DNA from: Aminomonas paucivorans DSM 12260
GTDB lineage: Bacteria > Synergistota > Synergistia > Synergistales > Synergistaceae
Reading direction: 5' to 3'
Assembly: GCF_000165795.1 (NCBI RefSeq)
Contig: NZ_CM001022.1
Location: 2,451,812-2,515,811 of the forward strand
Length of the DNA stretch: 64,000 nt
Shown: in pieces, positions 10,605 through 23,579 of the stretch
How the letters are laid out: each line of letters starts with the position of its first letter
Position numbering within the stretch: the first letter of the stretch is position 1
Notes under the pieces: generated by a model
The model's database searches: none
Seen by the model: the letters and a program-made list of their open reading frames with translations, nothing else
Told to the model about the DNA's origin: nothing
Position numbers and translations under genes: made by a program

Positions 10605-11873
10605 TCAGCTCCCTTGGTGCGTCCCCCGTTCCCGACGGCTCAGGGCGGCGGGTTCCAGGGAGATGGAGTCTCCTTCCAGCAGGGGGATCAGCCCCTCCCG
10701 GGAAAAGCCCTTCTGCCGGTCGCAGAAGGCGGCGCAGTGTTCGGGACAGCGGCTGATCCGATCCGCAGGCTCCGCGTAGGTGCTGAACACCCCCTCGTAG
10801 TTCCGCAGTACCACCCGCTTGTCCGACATGGACACCAGGTAGTTGGGCAGGAGGGGGATCTTCCCCCCGCCCCCGGGGGCGTCCACGATGAACGTGGGCA
10901 CCGCCATGCCGGAGGTGTGTCCCCGCAGGTACTCCATGATCTCCAGGCCCTTGGCCACGGGGGTGCGGAAATGCTCGATCCCCTGGGAGAGGTCGCACTG
11001 GTAGATGTAGTAGGGCCGCACCCGGAGGGTCAAAAGCTGCTGGTTCAGCTCCCGGAAGACGTAGGGACAGTCGTTGACCCCCTTGAGGAGCACCGACTGG
11101 TTCCCCAGGGGGATTCCCGCGTTCGCCAGCTTGGCGCAGGCCGCCCGGGACTGGGGGGTGATCTCCCGGGGGTGGTTGAAGTGGGTGTTCACCCACACCG
11201 GGTGGTGTCGCTTGAGGAGGGCGCAGAGGTCGTCGGTGATCCTCTGGGGCATCACCACGGGGGTCCGGGTCCCGAACCGGACGATCTCCACGTGGGGGAT
11301 GGAGCCCACCTCCGTGAGCACCCAGTCCAGAGTCCCGTCGTCCACCAGGAAGGGGTCCCCCCCGGTGAAGAGCACGTCCCGGAAGGTGGGGGTCCGACGG
11401 ATATAGTCCAGGGCTGCGGCGATCCGATCCCGGGAGTAGGCGTGGTCCGTCTCCCCCGCCTTCCGGCGCCGGGTACAGTGGCGGCAGTACATGGAGCACT
11501 GGTCCGTGAGGAGCAGGATCCCCCGGTCGGGGTAGCGATGGGTCAGCCCCGGCACGGGGGAGTCCACGTCCTCGTGCAGGGGGTCCCGAAGGTCCGTCTC
11601 CGCCACGTGGGTTTCCAGGATGGAGGGCACCGCCTGGCGGCGCACCGGGTCCTCCGGGTCCTTCGGATCGATCAGACTGGCGTAGTAGGGAGTGATGGCC
11701 ATACGCAGGGCCCCCAGGCTCTCCTGGATCTCCCGGGCCTCCGGATCGCTCAGGGGGATCACCCTCCGCAGCACCTCCACGGTGGTGATCCGGTTCGCCA
11801 CCTGCCAGCGCCAGTCGTTCCACTGGGCTTCCGTCACGTCCTTCCACAGTTCGATGTCCCTGTAGTCCCGCAA
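10605..11873 (-). CDS. kamA: Lysine 2,3-aminomutase (radical SAM, PLP)
   Basis: Converts L-lysine to L-beta-lysine using S-adenosylmethionine, a [4Fe-4S] cluster and PLP. From TTG 11873 (AGGAGG 8 nt upstream) the protein has 422 residues. The radical-SAM cysteines are C126, C130 and C133 (CSMYCRHC), the PLP lysine is K338 in DAPGGGGKIPLLPNY, and Asp294 and Asp331 align with the two aspartates that bind the lysine epsilon-amino group in the clostridial enzyme. These aspartates argue against glutamate 2,3-aminomutase. A C-terminal CPEHCAAFC matches the zinc site. The numbering is one off from the clostridial enzyme, which supports TTG; an ATG at 11912 would add 13 unaligned residues. No kamDE or ablB acetyltransferase is adjacent, so fermentation versus osmolyte synthesis is unresolved. 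Confidence 0.95.
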   Translation of the reverse strand: MRDYRDIELWKDVTEAQWNDWRWQVANRITTVEVLRRVIPLSDPEAREIQESLGALRMAITPYYASLIDPKDPEDPVRRQAVPSILETHVAETDLRDPLHEDVDSPVPGLTHRYPDRGILLLTDQCSMYCRHCTRRRKAGETDHAYSRDRIAAALDYIRRTPTFRDVLFTGGDPFLVDDGTLDWVLTEVGSIPHVEIVRFGTRTPVVMPQRITDDLCALLKRHHPVWVNTHFNHPREITPQSRAACAKLANAGIPLGNQSVLLKGVNDCPYVFRELNQQLLTLRVRPYYIYQCDLSQGIEHFRTPVAKGLEIMEYLRGHTSGMAVPTFIVDAPGGGGKIPLLPNYLVSMSDKRVVLRNYEGVFSTYAEPADRISRCPEHCAAFCDRQKGFSREGLIPLLEGDSISLEPAALSRRERGTHQGS

Positions 11874-12265
11874 CGTCTCCACCTCCTCGCCGGACCGCGA
11901 AGGGTCCGGCATCCGGCCCGAAGGGCCTTCCCCTCCCGTCGGCGGATCCTCCGCCGGGAGGATGCGATCTTCCCGTGTACCGCCTTCCCTTCCCCCTCGC
12001 TTCCCGCTTCCTCGGGCCCGACGCCGGACACGACGCCATCATGGGGAGCGCGAGAACGCACCTTCGGCTTCCGTAAATTTTGAAACTTCGATTTCGGATT
12101 ACCTGTGGGGGTCTTGCCCTAGAGGATAGAAAACTCGCAAGATAGGGTCAATTCTGCACCTTGTCGTGCCTTTTGGCCGCTGTACCCACCAACCTGCACA
12201 AATGGATACTCCACACAGGGGTTCGAGACGCCGGAAGGACCCGGGAAGCGGGAGGGGCGGAGGGA
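11874..12265. other. Gene-free stretch: kamA leader with stacked hairpins and recQ 3' flank
   Basis: The 392 bp between kamA and recQ hold no convincing gene. Read on the minus strand, the part after the promoter is a leader of about 240 nt. It carries an ATCCTCC/GGAGGAT hairpin near 11943-11963, a GGCCC/GGGCC hairpin near 11914-11926 and a CCGGACC/GGTCCGG hairpin near 11890-11910, the last just before the ribosome site. The segment 12060-12200 is markedly AT-richer than its surroundings. I could not match it to a known riboswitch. Confidence 0.5.
12123..12151 (-). promoter_or_regulatory. sigma70-type promoter of kamA
   Basis: Minus-strand TTGACC (12151-12146) and TATCCT (12128-12123) are spaced by 17 bp within an AT-rich island. 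A transcript starting near 12116 would have a roughly 240-nt untranslated leader before kamA. Confidence 0.6.
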
Positions 12266-14147: not shown

Positions 14148-15056
14148 CTAGCCCTTCAGGGCCTCCACGATCTGCCGGATGTGGAGGTCCGCGTCCCCGT
14201 AGGGGACCTGGCAGGTGCCCACCATCCGGTGTCCCCCGCCCCCGTGGCGGAGCATGAGGCTGCCCACGTCCACGGCGCAGGTGCGGTTGAGGACGCTGTA
14301 GCCGCAGGCGATGGCCACGTTCTGCTTCTGCCTGCCGTCCACGATCCACACCGACACGTTCTGCCCCGGGTAGAGGCTGTAGATGAGGAAACGGTTCCCC
14401 GCGTAGATGGGGGAGACGTCCCGCAGGTCCGTGAGGATGACGTTGCCCTCCACCTCCGTGTGCTCCCGCACCATGTCCTCGAAGAGGCGCGCCTGCTCCA
14501 GATAGAGGTCCACCCGTTCCGCCACGTCGGGAAGGGCCAGGATCTCGTGGATGCCCATGTGGCGGCAGTGGTTGATGAGTTCCCCCATGAGCTGGTAGTT
14601 GCTGATGCGAAACTCCCGGAAGCGTCCCAGGCCCGTGCGGGGGTCCGACAGGAAGCCCAGCAGCACCCAACCCGTGGGGTGGAGGATCTCCTCCCGGGTG
14701 AGCTGCCCCGAGTCCACCCGGTCCACCGCCTCGATCATGGCCTCGCAGTCGGGAAACCGCGTCGCCCCGCCGTAGTATTCGTAGACCACCCGGGCGGCGG
14801 AGGGGGCGAGACGGCTTTCCCCCTTCACGTCCTGGGACCAGCCCACCCGTTCCACCTCGGAGCTGTGGTGGTCGAACCACATGCCACACCCCGGGACGAA
14901 GGGCACGTTGGCCAGCACGTCGTCCTCCGTGGGCTGGAAGAGCCCGTCCTGCAGGTCCTTGGGGTGGACGAAGACCCAGGAATCCACCACCCCCGCCTCC
15001 TTCAGGAGCATCCCACAGATCAGTCCGTCGAAATCCGAGCGCGTCACGAGCCGCAT
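14148..15056 (-). CDS. DHH-family phosphoesterase
   Basis: Cytoplasmic metal-dependent phosphoesterase of 302 residues. The N-terminus has the first metal-ligand motif (RSDFDGLICG, residues 6-15), DHHSSE at 62-67 is the DHH motif, and the C-terminal DHHA1-type domain contains RHGGGGHRMVGTCQV. Relatives include exopolyphosphatases, cyclic-dinucleotide or nanoRNA phosphodiesterases and RecJ-like proteins; length and motifs fit the exopolyphosphatase-related group best, but the substrate is not determinable. ATG 15056 has GAGGAGG about 9 nt upstream. It lies about 180 bp downstream of the mscS-like gene on the same strand and about 80 bp upstream of recQ. Confidence 0.88.
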   Translation of the reverse strand: MRLVTRSDFDGLICGMLLKEAGVVDSWVFVHPKDLQDGLFQPTEDDVLANVPFVPGCGMWFDHHSSEVERVGWSQDVKGESRLAPSAARVVYEYYGGATRFPDCEAMIEAVDRVDSGQLTREEILHPTGWVLLGFLSDPRTGLGRFREFRISNYQLMGELINHCRHMGIHEILALPDVAERVDLYLEQARLFEDMVREHTEVEGNVILTDLRDVSPIYAGNRFLIYSLYPGQNVSVWIVDGRQKQNVAIACGYSVLNRTCAVDVGSLMLRHGGGGHRMVGTCQVPYGDADLHIRQIVEALKG

Positions 15057-15235
15057 GGCGAAGCCACCTCCTCAGGCATCTGTCCTTCCCGACCGCGTCC
15101 CGCGGGGACCGAGCCCGGGGAGGTTCGGGAAAGGCCTCGGGAAGGGAGACGGACCCCGGGGCCGGGACAACCCGATTCTACAACGTCTTCCCGGGCGACC
15201 CCAGGGCTTCGCGGGGGCCCCTCGGGAAGGGTGGC

Positions 15236-17464
15236 TCACCTCGGGGCCCCGTCGTTCCCCTTCGGGAAGGGGTCCCCCGCGGGGAAACGGACGTCCATGA
15301 GCCCGCCGGGGACAATGTCGATCCCCGCGGCGGGGAGGCTCTCCGCCAGGGCGAAGCGCAGGTCGCTTCGGGCATCCTCCAGGATGCGCCCCGACCGGAC
15401 CAGCTCCTCCTGGGACAGGAAGACGGTGAGTCGGAAGAGGAGGGCGCTGTTTTGAAACTCCGCGAAGCGCACGTAGGGTTCCGGATCCGCCAGGACGCGG
15501 GGGTGGGCCTCCGCCGCCTCCAGCATCAGGCGGCGCACCGTCCCGGGGTCGGAACCGTAGGCCACGGTGACGTCCACCTTGACCTTCACGGTCCGGTGAG
15601 CGTAGGTACGGTTGCGGATCTTGTCCCCCAGAAAAGCGCTGTTGGGGAGGAAGAGGTCCACCCCGTCGAAGGTGCGCACGTGGGCGGTGCGGGAGTCGAT
15701 CTCCTTCACCACGGCATACTCCCCGTCGATCTCGATGATGTCCCGGATGCGCACGGGCTTCTCCACCATAAGGATGAGGCCGCTGATGAGGTTTCGAAAG
15801 AAGTCCTGGGCTCCCACGCCGATCCCGATGGCCACGGCGCCTCCCAGGAAGGCGAAGGCGGTGAGGGGGATGTGCACCACGTGCAGGGCGAAGAGCACCA
15901 GCCCCGCCACGAAGAGGTAGTACACCAGCCGCTGGAGCAGCAGGGCCAGGTGGATGTCCCGCTTCTCGTTGGCGTGGATCCGGGCCCGGACGATCCGGGA
16001 GAGAAGGTTGGCCAGGAAGACCCCGGCCAGGAGGATCCCCAGGGCCTGCACCACCTTGCCCAGGGTGACGGAACGCCCCTCCACCACCCACAGCTCCCGC
16101 TCCCAGGCCACCCCCGCCGCCTGGGAGACCGCCGCCTGGGCGTTCCGCCACCACCCCACCTTGGTCTCCCGAGAGGCGATCTCGTCGGAGAAACGCCCCG
16201 AGAGGGCTTGAAGGGCCAGGAACCGGGCGATGGTCTCCAGGGTCTGTTCCCGGGTCTCCGCGATGCCCCGGAGCAGCTCCGACCGGACGCCCCCTTCTCC
16301 CTCCCCTTTTTCGGCGGGAAGGCTTCGGACCAGGGATTCCACCTGGGTCTGGAAACTCGCCAGGACCTGTTGCCGCTCCGTCACGGTCTCCCGGAGGAAG
16401 GCGATCCAGAGGTCGTTCTCCTCCTTCCAGCGGTGGAGCATGGACACCTCCGGGGCCTCGTCTCCCCCCTTCAGGAGGCTGTAGCGCCGTTCCCAGACCT
16501 GGCGGGTCTGAAGGAGAACCTGCTCCGCCTGCCGCGCCTGATCCTCCAGACGCTGGTACAGGGAGAGCAGCAGGTCCAGGGCCTCCCCCTCCGGGTCCTC
16601 CTTTCCCCCCCGAGCCCCTCCCCGGCGGGCCAGGAGTCCCGTCAGGTCCGCCTGGTGCTCCTCGTTTTGCCGCGCCCAGCGGGCGAAGAGGTTCAGCTTC
16701 TCCTCCACCAGGTGCCGTTGGGCCTCGAGGTCCTGGGCGCTGTAGCCCACCTTGGGGAGCAGGGCGCTCAGGAGCTGTGCATCCCGGTCCCGTCCCGCGG
16801 TCAGGAGAAGCTGCTCCGCCTCTATTCCCTTCATGCGAAGCTCCAGGCTCGCCAGGGCGGCCCGGCACAGGCGCTCGTCCAGGAGGGCGGCCTCCAGCTT
16901 CCAGGCGACCCGCAGCCTCTCCCGGCGGGAAAGCCCCGCCTGGTCCAGCCTTTCCCGCAGCACCCGCTGCTCCGCCTGGGCGTTCTTGAGTTCGTCCAGG
17001 TCGGACTCCCGGTCTGCGGCGTAGGACCGTTTGAGGAACCGGTCCTTGTCCAGACGCCGCTGGGCGTTCTCCATGCGGTCCCGGATCCCGTCCAGGAGGG
17101 AAAGGGGGTAGGGAGGAGCCCCCTCCGGAAACGCCGGCCCCTGATCCGCCGAGAGGACCTTCCTCCGGGTCTCCAGCTCCCCGAGCCAGCGACGCTCCGC
17201 CTGGATCCGCAGGACCAGGTTGCGGAGCACCGCCAGGTTGTCGCTGTACTCCCGCAGGTCCTCCAGGGGCACCCCCAGGCGGGCGGCGTTCTGGGAGGTC
17301 TCGTCCCGACGTGCCGCGGCGATCTCCTGGTCCAGCCGGTGGAGGTCCGGGAGGGACACCTCCCCGGTGGCGCCGGCCGTCTCCTGTCCCCGGGCGGGAA
17401 GGCCCCCCAGGGACAGGCAGGCCAGGGCGAGGCAGCAGAGCAGAAACCGTTTGATGGGTCTCAT
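15236..17464 (-). CDS. Large MscS-family mechanosensitive channel with N-terminal coiled-coil region
   Basis: Exported membrane protein of 742 residues. A signal peptide (MRPIKRFLLCCLALACLSLGG) is followed by some 400 residues of charged, heptad-like helical sequence predicted to be periplasmic. After several membrane helices comes the MscS core: GGAVAIGIGVGAQDFFRNLISGLILMVEKPVRIRD and the beta domain (DGEYAVVKEIDSRTAHVRTFDGVDLFLPNSAFL). The layout resembles MscK/YbdG-type large channels that release solutes on osmotic downshock. ATG 17464 begins only 3 nt after the stop of the GNAT-ligase gene, so it belongs to that operon. A role in releasing an accumulated product is possible but speculative. 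Confidence 0.92.
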   Translation of the reverse strand: MRPIKRFLLCCLALACLSLGGLPARGQETAGATGEVSLPDLHRLDQEIAAARRDETSQNAARLGVPLEDLREYSDNLAVLRNLVLRIQAERRWLGELETRRKVLSADQGPAFPEGAPPYPLSLLDGIRDRMENAQRRLDKDRFLKRSYAADRESDLDELKNAQAEQRVLRERLDQAGLSRRERLRVAWKLEAALLDERLCRAALASLELRMKGIEAEQLLLTAGRDRDAQLLSALLPKVGYSAQDLEAQRHLVEEKLNLFARWARQNEEHQADLTGLLARRGGARGGKEDPEGEALDLLLSLYQRLEDQARQAEQVLLQTRQVWERRYSLLKGGDEAPEVSMLHRWKEENDLWIAFLRETVTERQQVLASFQTQVESLVRSLPAEKGEGEGGVRSELLRGIAETREQTLETIARFLALQALSGRFSDEIASRETKVGWWRNAQAAVSQAAGVAWERELWVVEGRSVTLGKVVQALGILLAGVFLANLLSRIVRARIHANEKRDIHLALLLQRLVYYLFVAGLVLFALHVVHIPLTAFAFLGGAVAIGIGVGAQDFFRNLISGLILMVEKPVRIRDIIEIDGEYAVVKEIDSRTAHVRTFDGVDLFLPNSAFLGDKIRNRTYAHRTVKVKVDVTVAYGSDPGTVRRLMLEAAEAHPRVLADPEPYVRFAEFQNSALLFRLTVFLSQEELVRSGRILEDARSDLRFALAESLPAAGIDIVPGGLMDVRFPAGDPFPKGNDGAPR

Positions 17465-17467
17465 GGT

Positions 17468-19423
17468 CTACCCGATGTAGCGGATCTTGAAGCTCTGGGG
17501 GGTCATGATCTCCTCCCGCCGGACGAACCGCACCCGGGGAAGGGCCAGATGGGGCCGGTCCGCCAGGACCTGGGCGTAGATGCCCCCCCGGCCCGCCGCC
17601 AGGGCCTCCGCGAAGGCCCGGGAGGCCTCTGCGGGATCCAGGTCCGGCGCGTCGGGTCGGGGCACCAGGGCCAGGTCCAGGTGGGGGTCCTGGTTCTCGT
17701 CGGTGCTCCGCTTCATCTGGAACTCCCCGGAGAACCGGGCCGCCAGGTAGGGGGTCCCCTCCAGCACCTCCTTGACCTGGGAGATGAGGATCTTGGTGCC
17801 GCAGAAGGCCAGCCCGTCCAGCCGCCCCGTCACCAGCACGAAGGGATCCCGGGTGGACAGGGCGGGGTCGTGGCCCCGCTCCGCCAGGAGGCGCAGGGGG
17901 TCGTGTCCCCGGGCCCGCAGGGGTTCCACCAGCTCGTCGAAGCCCAACAGCCGCCCCCCGTCCCCGGAGCGGTACCGCACCAGGGGCACCGCGTTGTACC
18001 GGGTCATCACCAGCTCCCCCTCCACCTCCTCCAGGAACAGGTCCCCCGGGGTGATCTGGCAGAGGGTGGGCATGGCGTCCAGCCCCAGCAGCTCCCCCAG
18101 CAGTCCCTGCTCGTGGAGGATCCGGCGGATCGCCACGCAGAGGGGGGTTTCCTTCCCCACGTTACGGAAGTCCGTGGCCCCGTAGCCCGACACCACCGAG
18201 TCCAGGGTCCCGTAGGGGTACCCCAGAAGCTCGTTGATCCGGTCCCGGAAGGCCTCCGAGTACCCCTCCCCGAGGAGACGGAGCTTCACGTGCAGGTCCT
18301 TCACCGGGATCCCCCGGGCCTCGGCGGTTTCCAGCACGTTCTTGGCGGTGGCCCCGTAGGAGAAGAGCACCGTCTGCTCGAACAGGGGGGCGTACTCCCG
18401 CAGCGCCTCCAGACACCCCTCCTCGTCCCGCCCGGGGGTCACCAGGGTGATCTCCCCCGTCTCGATGCCCACCGCCCGGAGGGCGTAGGCGAACAGCGCC
18501 CCGCTGAGGTTGCCCCCCATGAGGACCCCCAGGATCACCAGGGTGGAGCGGGAACGGATCCGGTAGTTCCGCTCCAGCTCGTCGTAGGTGCGCTGCCAGT
18601 AGCCCTTCTCCAGCTCCGGCAGCATGGGCCAGGGGGTGTGGCGCCCCGAGGAACCGGAGCTGTGGGCGATCAGGTGCTTGCCCTTCAGGGTTCCGTCCAG
18701 GCACCGGTCCTCCAGGGGGTAGGCCGCCACGTACCCCGGTTTGTCCATGAAGGGCAGCTTCCGAAAGTCCTCCAGGTCCCGCACCTCCGGCACGGCGCCG
18801 CACCGTTCCTCCAGGAAGCGGCGGTACGCGGGCACCCGGTCTGCGGCGATGCGGTAGGTCTCGATGGGGGTCTTGGCCATGGTCCTCTCTCCGTCCTTTC
18901 TCCCGTCGGGGCTCTCCTCGACGGTCTTTTCCCCGGAGGCGTCCCGGGGCGCGTCCCCTTCCACGGGGTACTCCAGATCCAGCAGGAGCCGGTCCCGAAG
19001 CCAAACCCCCTCTTCCATGATCGTCTCGGGGTAGTTCCTCGGGAAGTAGTCCCGATCCACCTCCCGAACCCGAAACCCGCAGCGCTGGTAGAACCGAAGC
19101 TGGTAGCCGAAGCTCCCGGTGCCCAGCTCCAGGCGTCGGGCCCCCTCCCGGCCCAGGGTCTCCGTCACGTGGCGCAGCAGCCTCGTCCCCAGGCCCGTGC
19201 CCTGCGACGAGGGCTCCACCGCCAGGTTCATCAGCTCGTGGACCCCTCCCCCCCGGGACAGGACCGCGCAGACCCCCAGGATCCGCACCCCGGAGCAGAG
19301 GGCGAAGCACCGCGACCGGGGCAGGTAGGCCTCCACCGTCTCTCGGCACGGGTCGGCCAGGAGCAGCAGGTCCCAGGGGGCCTCCCCCGGGGGGATCTCT
19401 CGGATCCGCGCCTCCGTATCCAT
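17468..19423 (-). CDS. GNAT acyltransferase fused to PaaK/CapK-like adenylate-forming ligase
   Basis: Fusion of 651 residues. Residues 1-150 are a GNAT acyltransferase: acyl-CoA loop EPSSQGTGLGTRLL (70-83) and FYQRCGFRVREVDRDYFP. A charged linker (about 151-181) leads into a phenylacetate-CoA ligase/CapK-type adenylating domain with the P-loop-like AHSSGSSGRHTPW and the later SGYGATDFRN and VTGRLDGLAF blocks. ATG 19423 lies 2 nt after the stop of the racemase-like gene. Met182 (ATG 18880) has its own GGAGAGAGG, so the ligase may also be made separately. The GNAT part next to an NSAR-like enzyme recalls the N-succinylating acyltransferase of the D-to-L amino acid racemisation pathway. The adenylating partner is unexplained and the substrate is unknown. 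Confidence 0.85.
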   Translation of the reverse strand: MDTEARIREIPPGEAPWDLLLLADPCRETVEAYLPRSRCFALCSGVRILGVCAVLSRGGGVHELMNLAVEPSSQGTGLGTRLLRHVTETLGREGARRLELGTGSFGYQLRFYQRCGFRVREVDRDYFPRNYPETIMEEGVWLRDRLLLDLEYPVEGDAPRDASGEKTVEESPDGRKDGERTMAKTPIETYRIAADRVPAYRRFLEERCGAVPEVRDLEDFRKLPFMDKPGYVAAYPLEDRCLDGTLKGKHLIAHSSGSSGRHTPWPMLPELEKGYWQRTYDELERNYRIRSRSTLVILGVLMGGNLSGALFAYALRAVGIETGEITLVTPGRDEEGCLEALREYAPLFEQTVLFSYGATAKNVLETAEARGIPVKDLHVKLRLLGEGYSEAFRDRINELLGYPYGTLDSVVSGYGATDFRNVGKETPLCVAIRRILHEQGLLGELLGLDAMPTLCQITPGDLFLEEVEGELVMTRYNAVPLVRYRSGDGGRLLGFDELVEPLRARGHDPLRLLAERGHDPALSTRDPFVLVTGRLDGLAFCGTKILISQVKEVLEGTPYLAARFSGEFQMKRSTDENQDPHLDLALVPRPDAPDLDPAEASRAFAEALAAGRGGIYAQVLADRPHLALPRVRFVRREEIMTPQSFKIRYIG

Positions 19424-19425
19424 CC

Positions 19426-20682
19426 CTAATCCCCCAGGTCCAGGTCTTCGATGCCCCAGCCCGCCCCCGAGGGGACGGTCAGGCGGCCCCGGCGGTACTC
19501 CGGGGAGCTTCCCACGTTGCGCACGAAGTAGGGGGCCTGGGACACGTGGTCCCCCGGCAGGTCCACCTCGTCCCGGGAGCTGAAGTGCACGTTGGCGGTC
19601 TTGCCCAGGGCGGACTCGTGCATCCCCCCGCACCACACCGAGACCCCGTTGTCGCAGCAGAGGCGGGCGATGCGGATGGCCTCCAGGTAGCCCCCCACCC
19701 GGGGAGGCTTGATGTTCACCACCAGCCGGGAAGGGTGGGAGTGCTCCTTCCAGAGCTGGATGGCCTGCCGGGCGTGGACGGCGTGGAGGATGCTCTCGTC
19801 CAGGCAGATGGGGGTGGAGAGGTGGGCCAGCTGTCGGGCGTGGTCCAGGATGTCGTCGTTCCGACCGGGCTGCTCGATCATCAGGAGGCCGAACCGGTCG
19901 AAGTCCTTCAGCAGGGCCAGATGGGCCGGGTCGAAGAGGTCGTAGGCCGCGTTGGCGTCCACCTGGAGGGGCAGGTCGGGGTAGCGGTTCCGGATGGCAT
20001 CCAGGTAGGCCAGGTCCCGCCCGGGCTTGACCTTCACCTTCACCCGGACCACCTCCATCTCCCGGACCGCCCGGTCCACCTTGTCCATCAGGGCCTCCAC
20101 GGTGGGCTCCAGGCCCACGGAGGTTCCCGTCAGGACGGCCTTCCTCGTGCCCCCCCACAGGGAGGACACGGAGACCCCCCGGAGCCGGGCGACCCCGTCC
20201 CAGTAGGCTCCCTCCATCCCCGCCTTGGCCATGGGGTGCCCCACGATCCAGCGGTACCGGGAGGTGAAGGAGAGCACGTCCGTCACCGGCGGTTCCTTCC
20301 CCGAGGCGACGCCGTCCGCCTCCTCCACCGGCTTGCCCGTGAGGGAGGCCACCAGGTAGCCCAGGGCGGTGGCCACGCTCCGGTGGCATTCGTAATCGTA
20401 CCAGGGGGCGGAGAGGGGGGAGCACTCCCCCACCCCCGTCACCCGTCGGCCGTCCTCCGTCCGGAAGGTGATCTCCGGGTAGAGGCGCACCAGGGAGTCG
20501 AACCGGCCGAAGGAGGTCTCGAAGGGGATCCTCAGGTCCATCTTCCGGCTGCGCACCCGCACCGCCTCCACGGTCAGGGGAAGGGGGTTCTCGTAGATCC
20601 CCAGGACCTTCGGGGTCAGGACGCGTTCATCCAGGCACCCCCAGGTCGCCGTCCGACCGCGCGTTTCCTTCCATGTCTCCAT
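19426..20682 (-). CDS. Enolase-superfamily enzyme, N-acylamino acid racemase / o-succinylbenzoate synthase-like
   Basis: Mg2+-dependent enzyme of 418 residues in the muconate-lactonising branch of the enolase superfamily. The catalytic KxK is K215/K217 in RVKVKVKPG. The metal ligands are D242 (VDANAAY), E270 (IEQP) and D295 (CLDES), and the second catalytic lysine is K325 in NIKPPRVGG. This pattern matches the NSAR/OSBS family. No menaquinone genes are near, while GNAT domains are in the two flanking operon genes, so N-acyl amino acid racemisation is the better guess. An unusually long N-terminal extension of about 35 residues precedes the capping domain. ATG 20682 follows GGAGGAGG by 6 nt; an upstream start at 20703 lacks one. 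Confidence 0.87.
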   Translation of the reverse strand: METWKETRGRTATWGCLDERVLTPKVLGIYENPLPLTVEAVRVRSRKMDLRIPFETSFGRFDSLVRLYPEITFRTEDGRRVTGVGECSPLSAPWYDYECHRSVATALGYLVASLTGKPVEEADGVASGKEPPVTDVLSFTSRYRWIVGHPMAKAGMEGAYWDGVARLRGVSVSSLWGGTRKAVLTGTSVGLEPTVEALMDKVDRAVREMEVVRVKVKVKPGRDLAYLDAIRNRYPDLPLQVDANAAYDLFDPAHLALLKDFDRFGLLMIEQPGRNDDILDHARQLAHLSTPICLDESILHAVHARQAIQLWKEHSHPSRLVVNIKPPRVGGYLEAIRIARLCCDNGVSVWCGGMHESALGKTANVHFSSRDEVDLPGDHVSQAPYFVRNVGSSPEYRRGRLTVPSGAGWGIEDLDLGD

Positions 20683-20709
20683 GACGCACCTCCTCCGGAT
20701 CAATCCGCC

Positions 20710-22113
20710 TCAGGCTTCCTCCCCCGTCCCACCGCCCTCCGGCCCCCTTCGGGTCCGGGCCAGGGACAGGACCATCCCCAGACAGCAGACCCCGGCGAAG
20801 AAGGCGAAGCACCGCCTCGTGGCCCCCAGCATGTCCCCGTACCGCTCCGGGGGGATGCCCTTCACCTGCCCCAGGGCCAGGAGGAAGGCGACGCCGCAGA
20901 GGATGATGCTGCACTGCATCCCCAGGTTGCGCATGAGGGAGTTGGACGCCGCCGCCATCCCCCGGCGCTCCGGGGGGGCCGCCTGCATGATGATGCTGGT
21001 GTTGGGGGCGGAGAAGAAGGAAATCCCCACCCCCACCAGCACCAGCCCCGTCACCAGCAGGGAGAGGGGGGTCTGTTCGGTGAGGCGGGAGAAGAGCACC
21101 AGCGCCGCGGCGATGAGCCCCATGCCCCCGGTGGCCACCCACGCGGGAGGCACCCGGGAGGCCAGCCACCCCGCCAGGGGGGAGAAGAACACCTGCATCA
21201 GGGGCTGGTACAGGGTGATCTTTCCCGCCTCCAGGGGGCTCATGCCTCGGTTGCACTGGAGGTACAGGGGCAGCAGGTACTGGGACCCGTAGGTGGCCAG
21301 GAAATTCAGAAACACCGCCCCGTTGGCCAGGGCGAAGACCCGGTTGGTCAGGAAGAGGCGCAGGTCGAACACCGGGTTCTCCGCCCGGGTCTGCCGCCGA
21401 AGGAAGAGGGCGAAGGCCAGGGCGCATCCCCCCAGGAGCCAGGGCCCCCAGGGGGAGGTGAGGCGGCTCGCCCCGGTCTGGAGGGACACCAGGGCCAGGG
21501 CGTAGAAGAGGATCCCCGGGACGTCCAGGGGGCCCCGGTTCCCTCCCCCGGGCCGGGTGGCGGGGACCAGCAGCTGCAGCAGCACCAGGGCCACCCCAGC
21601 GCCCCCGGCGGCGCTCCAGAAGATGCTGCGCCAGCCGAAGACCTCCGTGAGGGCTCCCCCCACGAAGCTCCCCACGGAGTTGCCGAAGTACACCAGCCCC
21701 GAGAGCACCCCCAGGGCGGTGGTGCGGTGCTTCGGGGGCACCACCCCCACGATGATGGGGGTGTTGGACACCACCAGAAAGGCCGAGGCCACCCCCTGGA
21801 TCCCCCGCAGCAGCAGGAGGGACCGGAACCCCTGGGCCAGGAGGGGCACCAGCAGGTTGGAGAGGATGAAGAAACCGCAGCCGAACACCAGGGTCCGCTT
21901 GGGACCGTAGGTGTCCGACACCTTCCCGAAGGGGACGATGCAGACGCTGGAGCAGAGCAGGTACACCGACGTGAGGAGGCTCAGGGACGACGGGGAGACC
22001 GCCAGTTCCGTGCCGATGGTCTTGAGGGCCAGGTTCACCGACGAGGACAGGTAGGTGGACAGGAAGGACGTGAGCCCCGTGGCGAAGACCACCAGGACCA
22101 GGCGGAGGCTCAC
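20710..22113 (-). CDS. MFS drug/metabolite exporter (DHA2-like)
   Basis: Major facilitator superfamily transporter of 467 residues with about 14 hydrophobic segments, the size of the DHA2 group. Loop 2-3 carries GKVSDTYGPKRTLVFG, the family motif A, and FLVVSNTPIIVGVVPPKHRTTALG resembles the exporter-specific motif C region. The start is GTG 22113, which overlaps the previous stop as GTGA and places the first membrane helix (LVLVVFATGLTSFLSTYLSS) at the N-terminus; longer upstream reading is out-of-frame shadow. It lies between the RsbW-GNAT fusion and the racemase-like gene in one operon, so it probably exports the pathway product. Substrate unknown. Confidence 0.93.
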   Translation of the reverse strand: MSLRLVLVVFATGLTSFLSTYLSSSVNLALKTIGTELAVSPSSLSLLTSVYLLCSSVCIVPFGKVSDTYGPKRTLVFGCGFFILSNLLVPLLAQGFRSLLLLRGIQGVASAFLVVSNTPIIVGVVPPKHRTTALGVLSGLVYFGNSVGSFVGGALTEVFGWRSIFWSAAGGAGVALVLLQLLVPATRPGGGNRGPLDVPGILFYALALVSLQTGASRLTSPWGPWLLGGCALAFALFLRRQTRAENPVFDLRLFLTNRVFALANGAVFLNFLATYGSQYLLPLYLQCNRGMSPLEAGKITLYQPLMQVFFSPLAGWLASRVPPAWVATGGMGLIAAALVLFSRLTEQTPLSLLVTGLVLVGVGISFFSAPNTSIIMQAAPPERRGMAAASNSLMRNLGMQCSIILCGVAFLLALGQVKGIPPERYGDMLGATRRCFAFFAGVCCLGMVLSLARTRRGPEGGGTGEEA

Positions 22114-23579
22114 GGGCGCCCCCCCGGGAGGAAGACCTCCGGGCTCTGGCGGCGCAGGAACGCCAGGATCTCCCCGGCGCTTTCCTGATGGAGGTGGATT
22201 TCCTCCGGGTCCAGGGGCGGGCCGCCGATCCGCTGGAGCTGGAGGGCGTCCTTCCCGTCGGAGGTGCCGTCTGGAAAGACCCCGGAGTAGACGAACCCCA
22301 GCCGGGCCGCCGTCTCCGCCAGGGGGATCGCCCCCGGGTCCTCCAGGTTCAGGGAGAGGAGGATGCAGGCCACCTCCTGCTCCCGAAGCAGCTCCGTGTA
22401 GGCCTCCAGGCGGGCGCAGGCCGCCCCGCCCCCCCGAAGCTCCAGGGTCGCCCGGTTCCACACCAGGTCCCGGTCCAGGGAGCCGTCCTCCCGCTCCGTC
22501 GGGTCCGCCGGGTTCCCCAGCTCCACCGGCAGGTCCAGCCACCCGTAGGTCCGAAGGATCAGGTCCCGGTACCGTTCCGGGGGGTACACCACCCGACGGG
22601 GCCGGGGGTTCAGGGGGTGCACGTTCAGCACCGTGGTCACCCGGTCCCCCGGGCGGGCTCCCTCCACGAAGACCCCCGGGGAAGAGGCCAGGCGGATCCC
22701 CACGGTGCGCCTCCCGTAGCGCTCGCTCACCTTCTGGGTGGCGGTGTGGTTCGTCACGGAGAGGGAGAAGATCCCCCGGAGGCCGCTGCGGAAAGCGTCC
22801 CGGTGGGCCTCCTCGGCGAGCTGCCCGAAGACCCCCTCCCGGCGCCGCTCCGGGCGCACGAAGGCCGCCCCCATCTCCCCCACCGACGCGTCGATCCTCT
22901 TGCGGATCAGGGCATAGTGGCCGTGCACCGTGCCCCCCTCGTCCACGGCGATCCAGGAGCGCATGAGCCCCCCCCGGTTCTTCTCCAGAAGCTGTTCGGG
23001 GTAGTAGATCACGTCCTTGTAGGCGTAGCGGTACACGTCGTAGGCGCACACCGCCACCGCCAGGGCGTCCGCCTCGTCCCGGAGCAGACGGTATTCCATC
23101 CGTCCCGCCACCGGCACCCCCTCCGCGGGGAGGGGGGGGCGGACCTCCTCCCCCAGGAGGGGGGAGGGGAAGGCCTTGAACAGGGTCAGCTCCCGCCCCT
23201 GTTTCTCCAGGTAGCGCCAGCTGAGGGAGTCCACGCTGTGTCGCATGAGGAAGAGCCCCAGCCCCGCCTGGGAGGTCTCGCAGTCCTCCGGGCTGAACTG
23301 GGGGAGCTTGCGGAAGTCGAAGGGGCGCCCCGGGGCCAGGAGGCGGAAGCGCACCGCCGAGGAATCCACGCCCACGGTGACCTTCAGGGGCTCCTCCCGG
23401 TCGGCGGCACCTCCCTGCTCCATCAGGGCCGTCAGCCCCTCTTCCAGGGCCAGTTCCAGATCCTGCCGGGTCCGGCCGGGAATCCGAAGGCTCTCGCAGA
23501 GGGCCAGGACAAACCCCTGGACCGCGGCGATGCTGGAGGGTTCCTGGGGAACGGAGAGTTCCGCTTCGTAGACTTTCAT
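22110..23579 (-). CDS. RsbW-like HATPase domain fused to GNAT acetyltransferase domain(s)
   Basis: Protein of 489 residues. Residues 1-135 resemble the serine-protein-kinase/anti-sigma fold (LALCESLRIPGRTRQDLELALEEGLTALMEQ, then a G-box-like SQAGLGLFLMRHSVDSLSW). The normal Asn of the ATP-binding N-box is not evident, so kinase activity is doubtful. From about residue 170 on, a GNAT region appears (AAFVRPERRREGVFGQLAEEAHRDAFRSGLRGIFSLSVTNHTATQKVSERYG), followed by a further 170 residues that may be a second degenerate GNAT fold. ATG 23579 is preceded by GGAGGAGG at about 14 nt. First gene of the racemase/ligase operon. The function is unknown; regulation of the acyltransferase by the HATPase-like domain is speculation. 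Confidence 0.82.
   Translation of the reverse strand: MKVYEAELSVPQEPSSIAAVQGFVLALCESLRIPGRTRQDLELALEEGLTALMEQGGAADREEPLKVTVGVDSSAVRFRLLAPGRPFDFRKLPQFSPEDCETSQAGLGLFLMRHSVDSLSWRYLEKQGRELTLFKAFPSPLLGEEVRPPLPAEGVPVAGRMEYRLLRDEADALAVAVCAYDVYRYAYKDVIYYPEQLLEKNRGGLMRSWIAVDEGGTVHGHYALIRKRIDASVGEMGAAFVRPERRREGVFGQLAEEAHRDAFRSGLRGIFSLSVTNHTATQKVSERYGRRTVGIRLASSPGVFVEGARPGDRVTTVLNVHPLNPRPRRVVYPPERYRDLILRTYGWLDLPVELGNPADPTEREDGSLDRDLVWNRATLELRGGGAACARLEAYTELLREQEVACILLSLNLEDPGAIPLAETAARLGFVYSGVFPDGTSDGKDALQLQRIGGPPLDPEEIHLHQESAGEILAFLRRQSPEVFLPGGRP

Follow-up and report, generated by a model that had tools for sequence, protein, structure and literature searches.

A patchily distributed four-gene cassette of Aminomonas paucivorans that may make and export an N-acyl amino acid

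The genome of Aminomonas paucivorans, an amino acid-fermenting member of the Synergistota, contains genes of an RsbW-GNAT fusion, a DHA2-type MFS exporter, an NSAR/OSBS-type enolase and a PaaK-like ligase, which recur together as a core in other genomes. We consider the chances about even that they form a mobile cassette in which an acid is activated and joined to an amino acid, the resulting N-acyl amino acid is racemised and the product is exported. The PaaK-like ligase would convert a carboxylic acid and ATP to acyl-AMP, possibly acyl-CoA, and the acyl group would be passed to the amino group of the amino acid; this transfer might be catalysed by the ligase, which would then resemble ClxA, or else by the GNAT portion of the RsbW-GNAT protein. 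Next, the NSAR-type enolase would racemise or epimerise the N-acylated amino acid through Lys/Lys proton transfer, and the DHA2-type MFS protein would carry the product out, while the RsbW-like part may act as a scaffold or docking domain. We infer the reactions themselves (acid activation, amide formation and racemisation) as well as their order, the direction of transport and the class of product. The presence of a ligase and an exporter alongside the enolase argues for the making and exporting of an acylated amino acid, as the original prediction had supposed on similar grounds, with detoxification as its alternative.

The genome is a single contig of 2,630,170 bases; for strain GLU-3, 2,630,120 bp and 67.6% GC have been published (PMC3035310). 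The window, i.e. the whole 64-kb stretch of DNA analysed, carries five tightly packed genes on its minus strand at 15236-23579 (Table 1). The RsbW-GNAT and MFS genes overlap by 4 nt, and the following gaps are 27 nt (MFS/enolase), 2 nt (enolase/GNAT-ligase) and 3 nt (GNAT-ligase/MscS), in agreement with the packing described originally (gaps of 2-30 nt or overlaps). The range first proposed, 14148-23579, does include the five genes but also takes in the gene of a 302-aa protein outside the set, which lies about 180 nt past the MscS gene, adjoins RecQ and had no Pfam or NCBIfam match; by eye, this protein resembles DHH-type phosphoesterases. The fusion of GNAT and ligase is a true open frame, and an internal ATG at 18880, with a Shine-Dalgarno-like stretch (GGAGAG), would start the ligase alone. 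The MscS gene is probably cotranscribed with the ligase in this genome. A promoter scan of the locus gave zero sigma-70 sites, and terminator-like sites were no commoner there than in shuffles. Elsewhere in the window (10605-11912), a lysine-2,3-aminomutase-type radical SAM enzyme is encoded, which fits an amino-acid-fermenting host.

Table 1. Genes and gene parts of the Aminomonas paucivorans locus (positions in the window)
Feature	Position	Strand	Length	Evidence and remarks
RsbW-like/GNAT fusion	22110-23579	-	489 aa	Pfam HATPase_c_2 49 bits, GNAT 18.7 bits (sub-threshold); core gene
DHA2/EmrB-like MFS exporter	20710-22113	-	467 aa (from GTG)	Pfam MFS_1 227 bits; core gene
NSAR/OSBS-family enolase	19426-20682	-	418 aa	TIGR01928, best PDB match, residue table, tree; core gene
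GNAT-ligase fusion, whole frame	17468-19423	-	651 aa	
PaaK-like adenylate-forming ligase part	17468-18880	-	470 aa	Weak phmmer match to PaaK 2y4o, fold matches, motifs; core gene
GNAT domain fused in frame to ligase	18881-19423	-		Pfam Acetyltransf_1 45.9 bits; outside the conserved core
MscK-like MscS channel	15236-17464	-	742 aa	Pfam; outside the conserved core
302-aa protein	14148-15056		302 aa	Outside the set

All four core genes, in the same order as in the window, were found in one other of the 188 genomes of the phylum, which belongs to another Synergistota family (G018, L063); the identities are 55% for RsbW-GNAT, 67% for the MFS protein, 75% for the enolase and 63% for the ligase. Two genomes of one phylum outside the Synergistota, the MAG bacterium ADurb.Bin243 (L105/L198) and G232 (L202), also contain all four genes, in a changed order, and in both of them a single 887-aa open frame encodes enolase and ligase together. 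Because L198 and L202 are nearly identical copies, they amount to little more than one independent case. In a Chlorobiota MAG (L107), three of the four genes, MFS, ligase and enolase, are contiguous up to the contig end; its MFS frame contains one break, which is either a sequencing error or real, and L107, like L106, is a short MAG contig with possible misbinning. In a gammaproteobacterial MAG (G189), the enolase and a cassette-type RsbW-GNAT are on separate short contigs, and the bin yielded no ligase. Another genome of the same order (G488) encodes a 54-56% identical enolase alone, with no cassette beside it, so the enolase is not always part of the core unit. Searches with strict enolase patterns gave zero matches in viral contigs, and plasmids yielded only NSAR/OSBS members less than 60% identical.

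The recurrence of the core in distant genomes with shuffled gene order is more than would be expected by chance; the four genes are a real, if patchy, unit, probably spread by horizontal transfer. The MFS gene is conserved in L063, L198, L202 and L107. In L063, L198 and L202, no MscS gene accompanies the cassette; the ligase-fused GNAT is absent from these three and from L107, its fusion being present in no ligase-bearing relative; GNATs about 50% identical to it, without a ligase, occur in G025, G026 and G028. Neither MscS nor the GNAT-ligase fusion can thus be regarded as a conserved part, and of the five-domain unit originally proposed, four genes are conserved together.

The enolase scored above the cut-off of the OSBS/NSAR model TIGR01928 (205.5 bits versus 200.65; 206-220 bits for its relatives), whereas the nearest rival profiles reached about 70 bits or less (DgcA 69, Thermotoga-type epimerase 50). 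Its best PDB match was the N-acylamino acid racemase/OSBS (NSAR) of Amycolatopsis (1sja, E 5e-56). In the tree, six cassette-type enolases and a Patescibacteria sister formed one clade (100/100) within NSAR/OSBS, and the cassette enolases were separated, again with 100/100, from epimerase-like paralogues of Synergistota. By its sequence, then, the enolase is an NSAR/OSBS-family member; the reading as a dipeptide epimerase, an outcome named at the outset as one that would refute the prediction, was rejected on the profile scores and the tree. The residue table also bears out the view that all catalytic residues of NSAR/OSBS are kept: the Lys/Lys pair K217 and K325 (the former in K215xK217), the metal ligands D242, E270 and D295, and R328, the equivalent of Arg266 of the Amycolatopsis enzyme. 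Arg266 is a marker of NSAR activity. The same residues are present in the relatives wherever the region is. Two pocket positions differ, which we take to have a role in acyl binding: at position 293, where Amycolatopsis has Ile and 74 of the 76 others have Leu, the cassette clade has His (His355 of the window enolase), with Tyr in L106, and at position 296 it has Ala in place of Gly. The acyl specificity of the cassette enolase has therefore probably changed, and His293 and Ala296 make an activity other than N-succinyl amino acid racemisation possible.

Among the closest known systems is the NSAR route for D-amino acids, which combines a GNAT succinyltransferase, an N-succinylamino acid racemase and an M20 deacylase, and the cassette resembles it in having an enolase of the same family with intact residues and a GNAT nearby. 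However, the cassette GNAT belongs to another subfamily and is fused to an RsbW-like domain, M20 is absent, an exporter and a PaaK-like ligase are additional, the latter being joined to the enolase in two genomes, and the enolase has His at the pocket position of Ile293. In a scan of 80 loci of the NSAR family, the succinylation-route GNAT was near 49, M20 near 35 and both near 31; beside the cassette enolases neither was found, M20 occurring only at the Patescibacteria sister (L108). In the same scan, a PaaK-like ligase adjoined the enolase as a separate gene only in L107 and L108, L105 carrying the fusion and L106 being truncated where its contig stops. The likeness to the succinylation route drawn in the original prediction was thus not borne out, since the GNAT differs in subfamily and since an enolase with the ligase next to it is seen only in the cassette clade and in the sister of that clade. 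In L108, a MAG of Patescibacteria, the sister enolase gene precedes genes for a PaaK-like ligase of a different subfamily and a DapE/ArgE-type M20 deacylase; RsbW-GNAT was not found there. Directly upstream of these three genes lies a gene of a 483-aa protein with no Pfam or NCBIfam match (L108:7369-8820).

MenC, an enolase, and MenE, an ANL ligase, catalyse consecutive steps in menaquinone synthesis, and the cassette might be built alike, the enolase making an acid by dehydration or racemisation, the fused ligase activating it, the GNAT passing it on to an amine, and the resulting amide leaving the cell through the MFS protein. The pairing of an enolase-superfamily enzyme with an adenylate-forming ligase and the TIGR01928 score above the cut-off are shared with MenC-MenE, and the 887-aa fusion, together with the L108 pair that lacks RsbW-GNAT, suggests consecutive steps. 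The fusion indicates that enolase and ligase belong together, yet it leaves their order of action undecided. The complete set of NSAR residues, with the equivalent of Arg266 among them, speaks against this scheme, as do the ligase, which is PaaK-like and not MenE-like, and MenD, the one men gene searched, whose best score in the host genome was 85.6 bits against the TIGR00173 cut-off of 244.2. The cassette further differs from MenC-MenE in having GNAT and MFS genes. We regard a MenC-MenE-like order of reactions as unlikely. The low MenD score also makes the role of menaquinone OSBS unlikely for the enolase, and its identification as MenC was rejected on this ground; a men pathway lacking its own OSBS had been named at the outset as a refuting outcome.

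The ligase did not match Pfam AMP-binding and scored far below the cut-off of the NCBIfam PaaK models, which points to a divergent PaaK-like member of the ANL superfamily. Its predicted structure (pLDDT 82) matched the fold of the PaaK enzymes 4r1m and 2y4o and of the amide ligases ClxA and McbA; the alignments had an rmsd of 8-12 A, probably due to domain placement, and the match was for this reason counted for fold class only. An SSGSSG loop, YGATD, GR-D and a C-terminal Lys465 are conserved across the cassette ligases, which end in TPQSFKIR, TPASFKIR or TPVSFKIR. Judged by the modelled fold, the core motifs and the C-terminal Lys, the protein is a PaaK-like ANL ligase. ClxA of closoxazole biosynthesis in the anaerobe Clostridium cavendishii, also of PaaK-like ANL fold, is reported to adenylate an acid and to couple it to an amine as well, forming an amide (PMC12519233). 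ClxA is, however, 15% identical to the cassette ligase in the structural alignment, and its pathway is not known to include an enolase. A stand-alone ligase paralogue (48%) is encoded elsewhere in the genome of A. paucivorans (L067:9927-11330, C1:518926-520320), with orthologues in several Synergistota genera.

The predicted structure of RsbW-GNAT (pLDDT 83.8) starts with an RsbW-like domain and continues with GNAT-like domains, the second of which is putative and was read from the secondary structure of the model. Foldseek matched it to RsbW (6m37, TM 0.87 by target) and to amino-acid N-acetyltransferases. The HATPase_c_2 fold is that of the RsbW/SpoIIAB anti-sigma kinases, but the cassette proteins are fused to GNAT, have no RsbV beside them and have degenerate ATP-site motifs: the acidic residue of the G1 box is kept in none of the five cassette-type proteins and the N-box Asn in one of them, both being kept in most paralogues. 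The RsbW-like part probably no longer binds ATP, and the loss of the acidic residue makes an ATP-dependent anti-sigma kinase unlikely; the RsbW-like regulator domain of the original prediction is accordingly hard to maintain as a working ATP-dependent regulator. Identity between the window and L063 is 46% in the RsbW part and 66% in the GNAT part, a difference that fits relaxed constraint on the former.

A further explanation might be that RsbW-GNAT is a lysine acetyltransferase of the Pat class I-beta type, which silences the neighbouring ligase through its catalytic lysine. Class I-beta Pats likewise combine GNAT with a domain of nucleotide-binding type next to an AMP-forming ligase, RsbW-GNATs adjoin AMP-forming ligases of several families, and known Pats with a regulatory domain and GNAT target acyl-CoA synthetases, recognising the motif PX4GK (PMC6434083). 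The cassette ligases, however, end in TPxSFKIR and lack PX4GK, the nucleotide-site motifs of the putative sensor domain are degenerate, and the M20 and Amidohydro_3 hydrolases beside paralogues point to small molecules, so that such silencing appears quite improbable.

RsbW-GNAT paralogues lie beside LuxE, LuxC and MFS genes (in Synergistota and others), beside genes of an acyl-CoA synthetase, MFS, M20 and ThiF, or beside those of an AMP-ligase/ACP/acyltransferase protein and MFS, and some are near M20 hydrolases or an Amidohydro_3 hydrolase. Since several paralogues have no such neighbours, the link with acyl-activating enzymes is frequent and not universal, and it comes from a plain listing of neighbourhoods. 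The operons with RsbW-GNAT, LuxC, LuxE and MFS (L094:8784-15160, L097:6185-12664, L098, L096 and L247) belong to Synergistota and another phylum and encode enzymes of aldehyde-forming type, with no luciferase seen nearby; the second half of their LuxC protein lies outside the LuxC domain. Two other operons (L241:2767-10865 and L194:7132-13629) encode an acyl-CoA synthetase, a DHA2-like MFS protein (L241), RsbW-GNAT, a ThiF-like protein, a 463-aa protein and M20. In the genome of A. paucivorans itself and in G348, an RsbW-GNAT paralogue adjoins RsbV- and RsbW-like genes. The former (L101:9476-10933, C1 about 2,581,475-2,582,932) is 30% identical, and beside it lie genes of the STAS/RsbV-like and RsbW-like kinds and one for a sensor-like protein.

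The best NCBIfam model for the MFS protein was EmrB (TIGR00711, 152.8 bits, under its cut-off); a crude hydropathy count of its transmembrane helices gave overlapping segments and was discarded. Detoxification, in which a foreign D-amino acid or analogue would be N-acylated and then pumped out or inverted for use, is the least probable of the explanations, for although the MFS protein is of drug-efflux type and the fold matches of GNAT include phosphinothricin and arsinothricin acetyltransferases, GNAT-to-GNAT fold matches are unspecific, an acetyl-CoA route requires neither a dedicated ligase nor a racemase, and no resistance family scored above its profile cut-off.

Returning to the synthesis and export of an N-acyl amino acid, the cassette may be a variation on known N-acyl amino acid chemistry, and the case for its novelty, a weak one, is that no description of it or of the RsbW-GNAT fusion was found in open-access papers (subscription papers lay outside the search). 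More tentatively, RsbW-GNATs might represent an undescribed acyltransferase family, combined in a modular way with varied acyl-activating enzymes (a PaaK-like ligase with a racemase, LuxE/LuxC, acyl-CoA synthetase or AMP-ligase/ACP/acyltransferase) and an MFS exporter, i.e. a new class of small, NRPS-free biosynthesis and export systems in anaerobes; the A. paucivorans cassette would then export an N-acyl D-amino acid or the corresponding amide. If the proposed pathway is right, a compact set of ligase, racemase, acyltransferase and exporter, patchy across several phyla, would join N-acyl amino acid metabolism. Some enzymes annotated as o-succinylbenzoate synthase would gain a genomic setting that speaks against a role in menaquinone synthesis, and the RsbW-GNAT family would provide a handle for finding further pathways of this kind.
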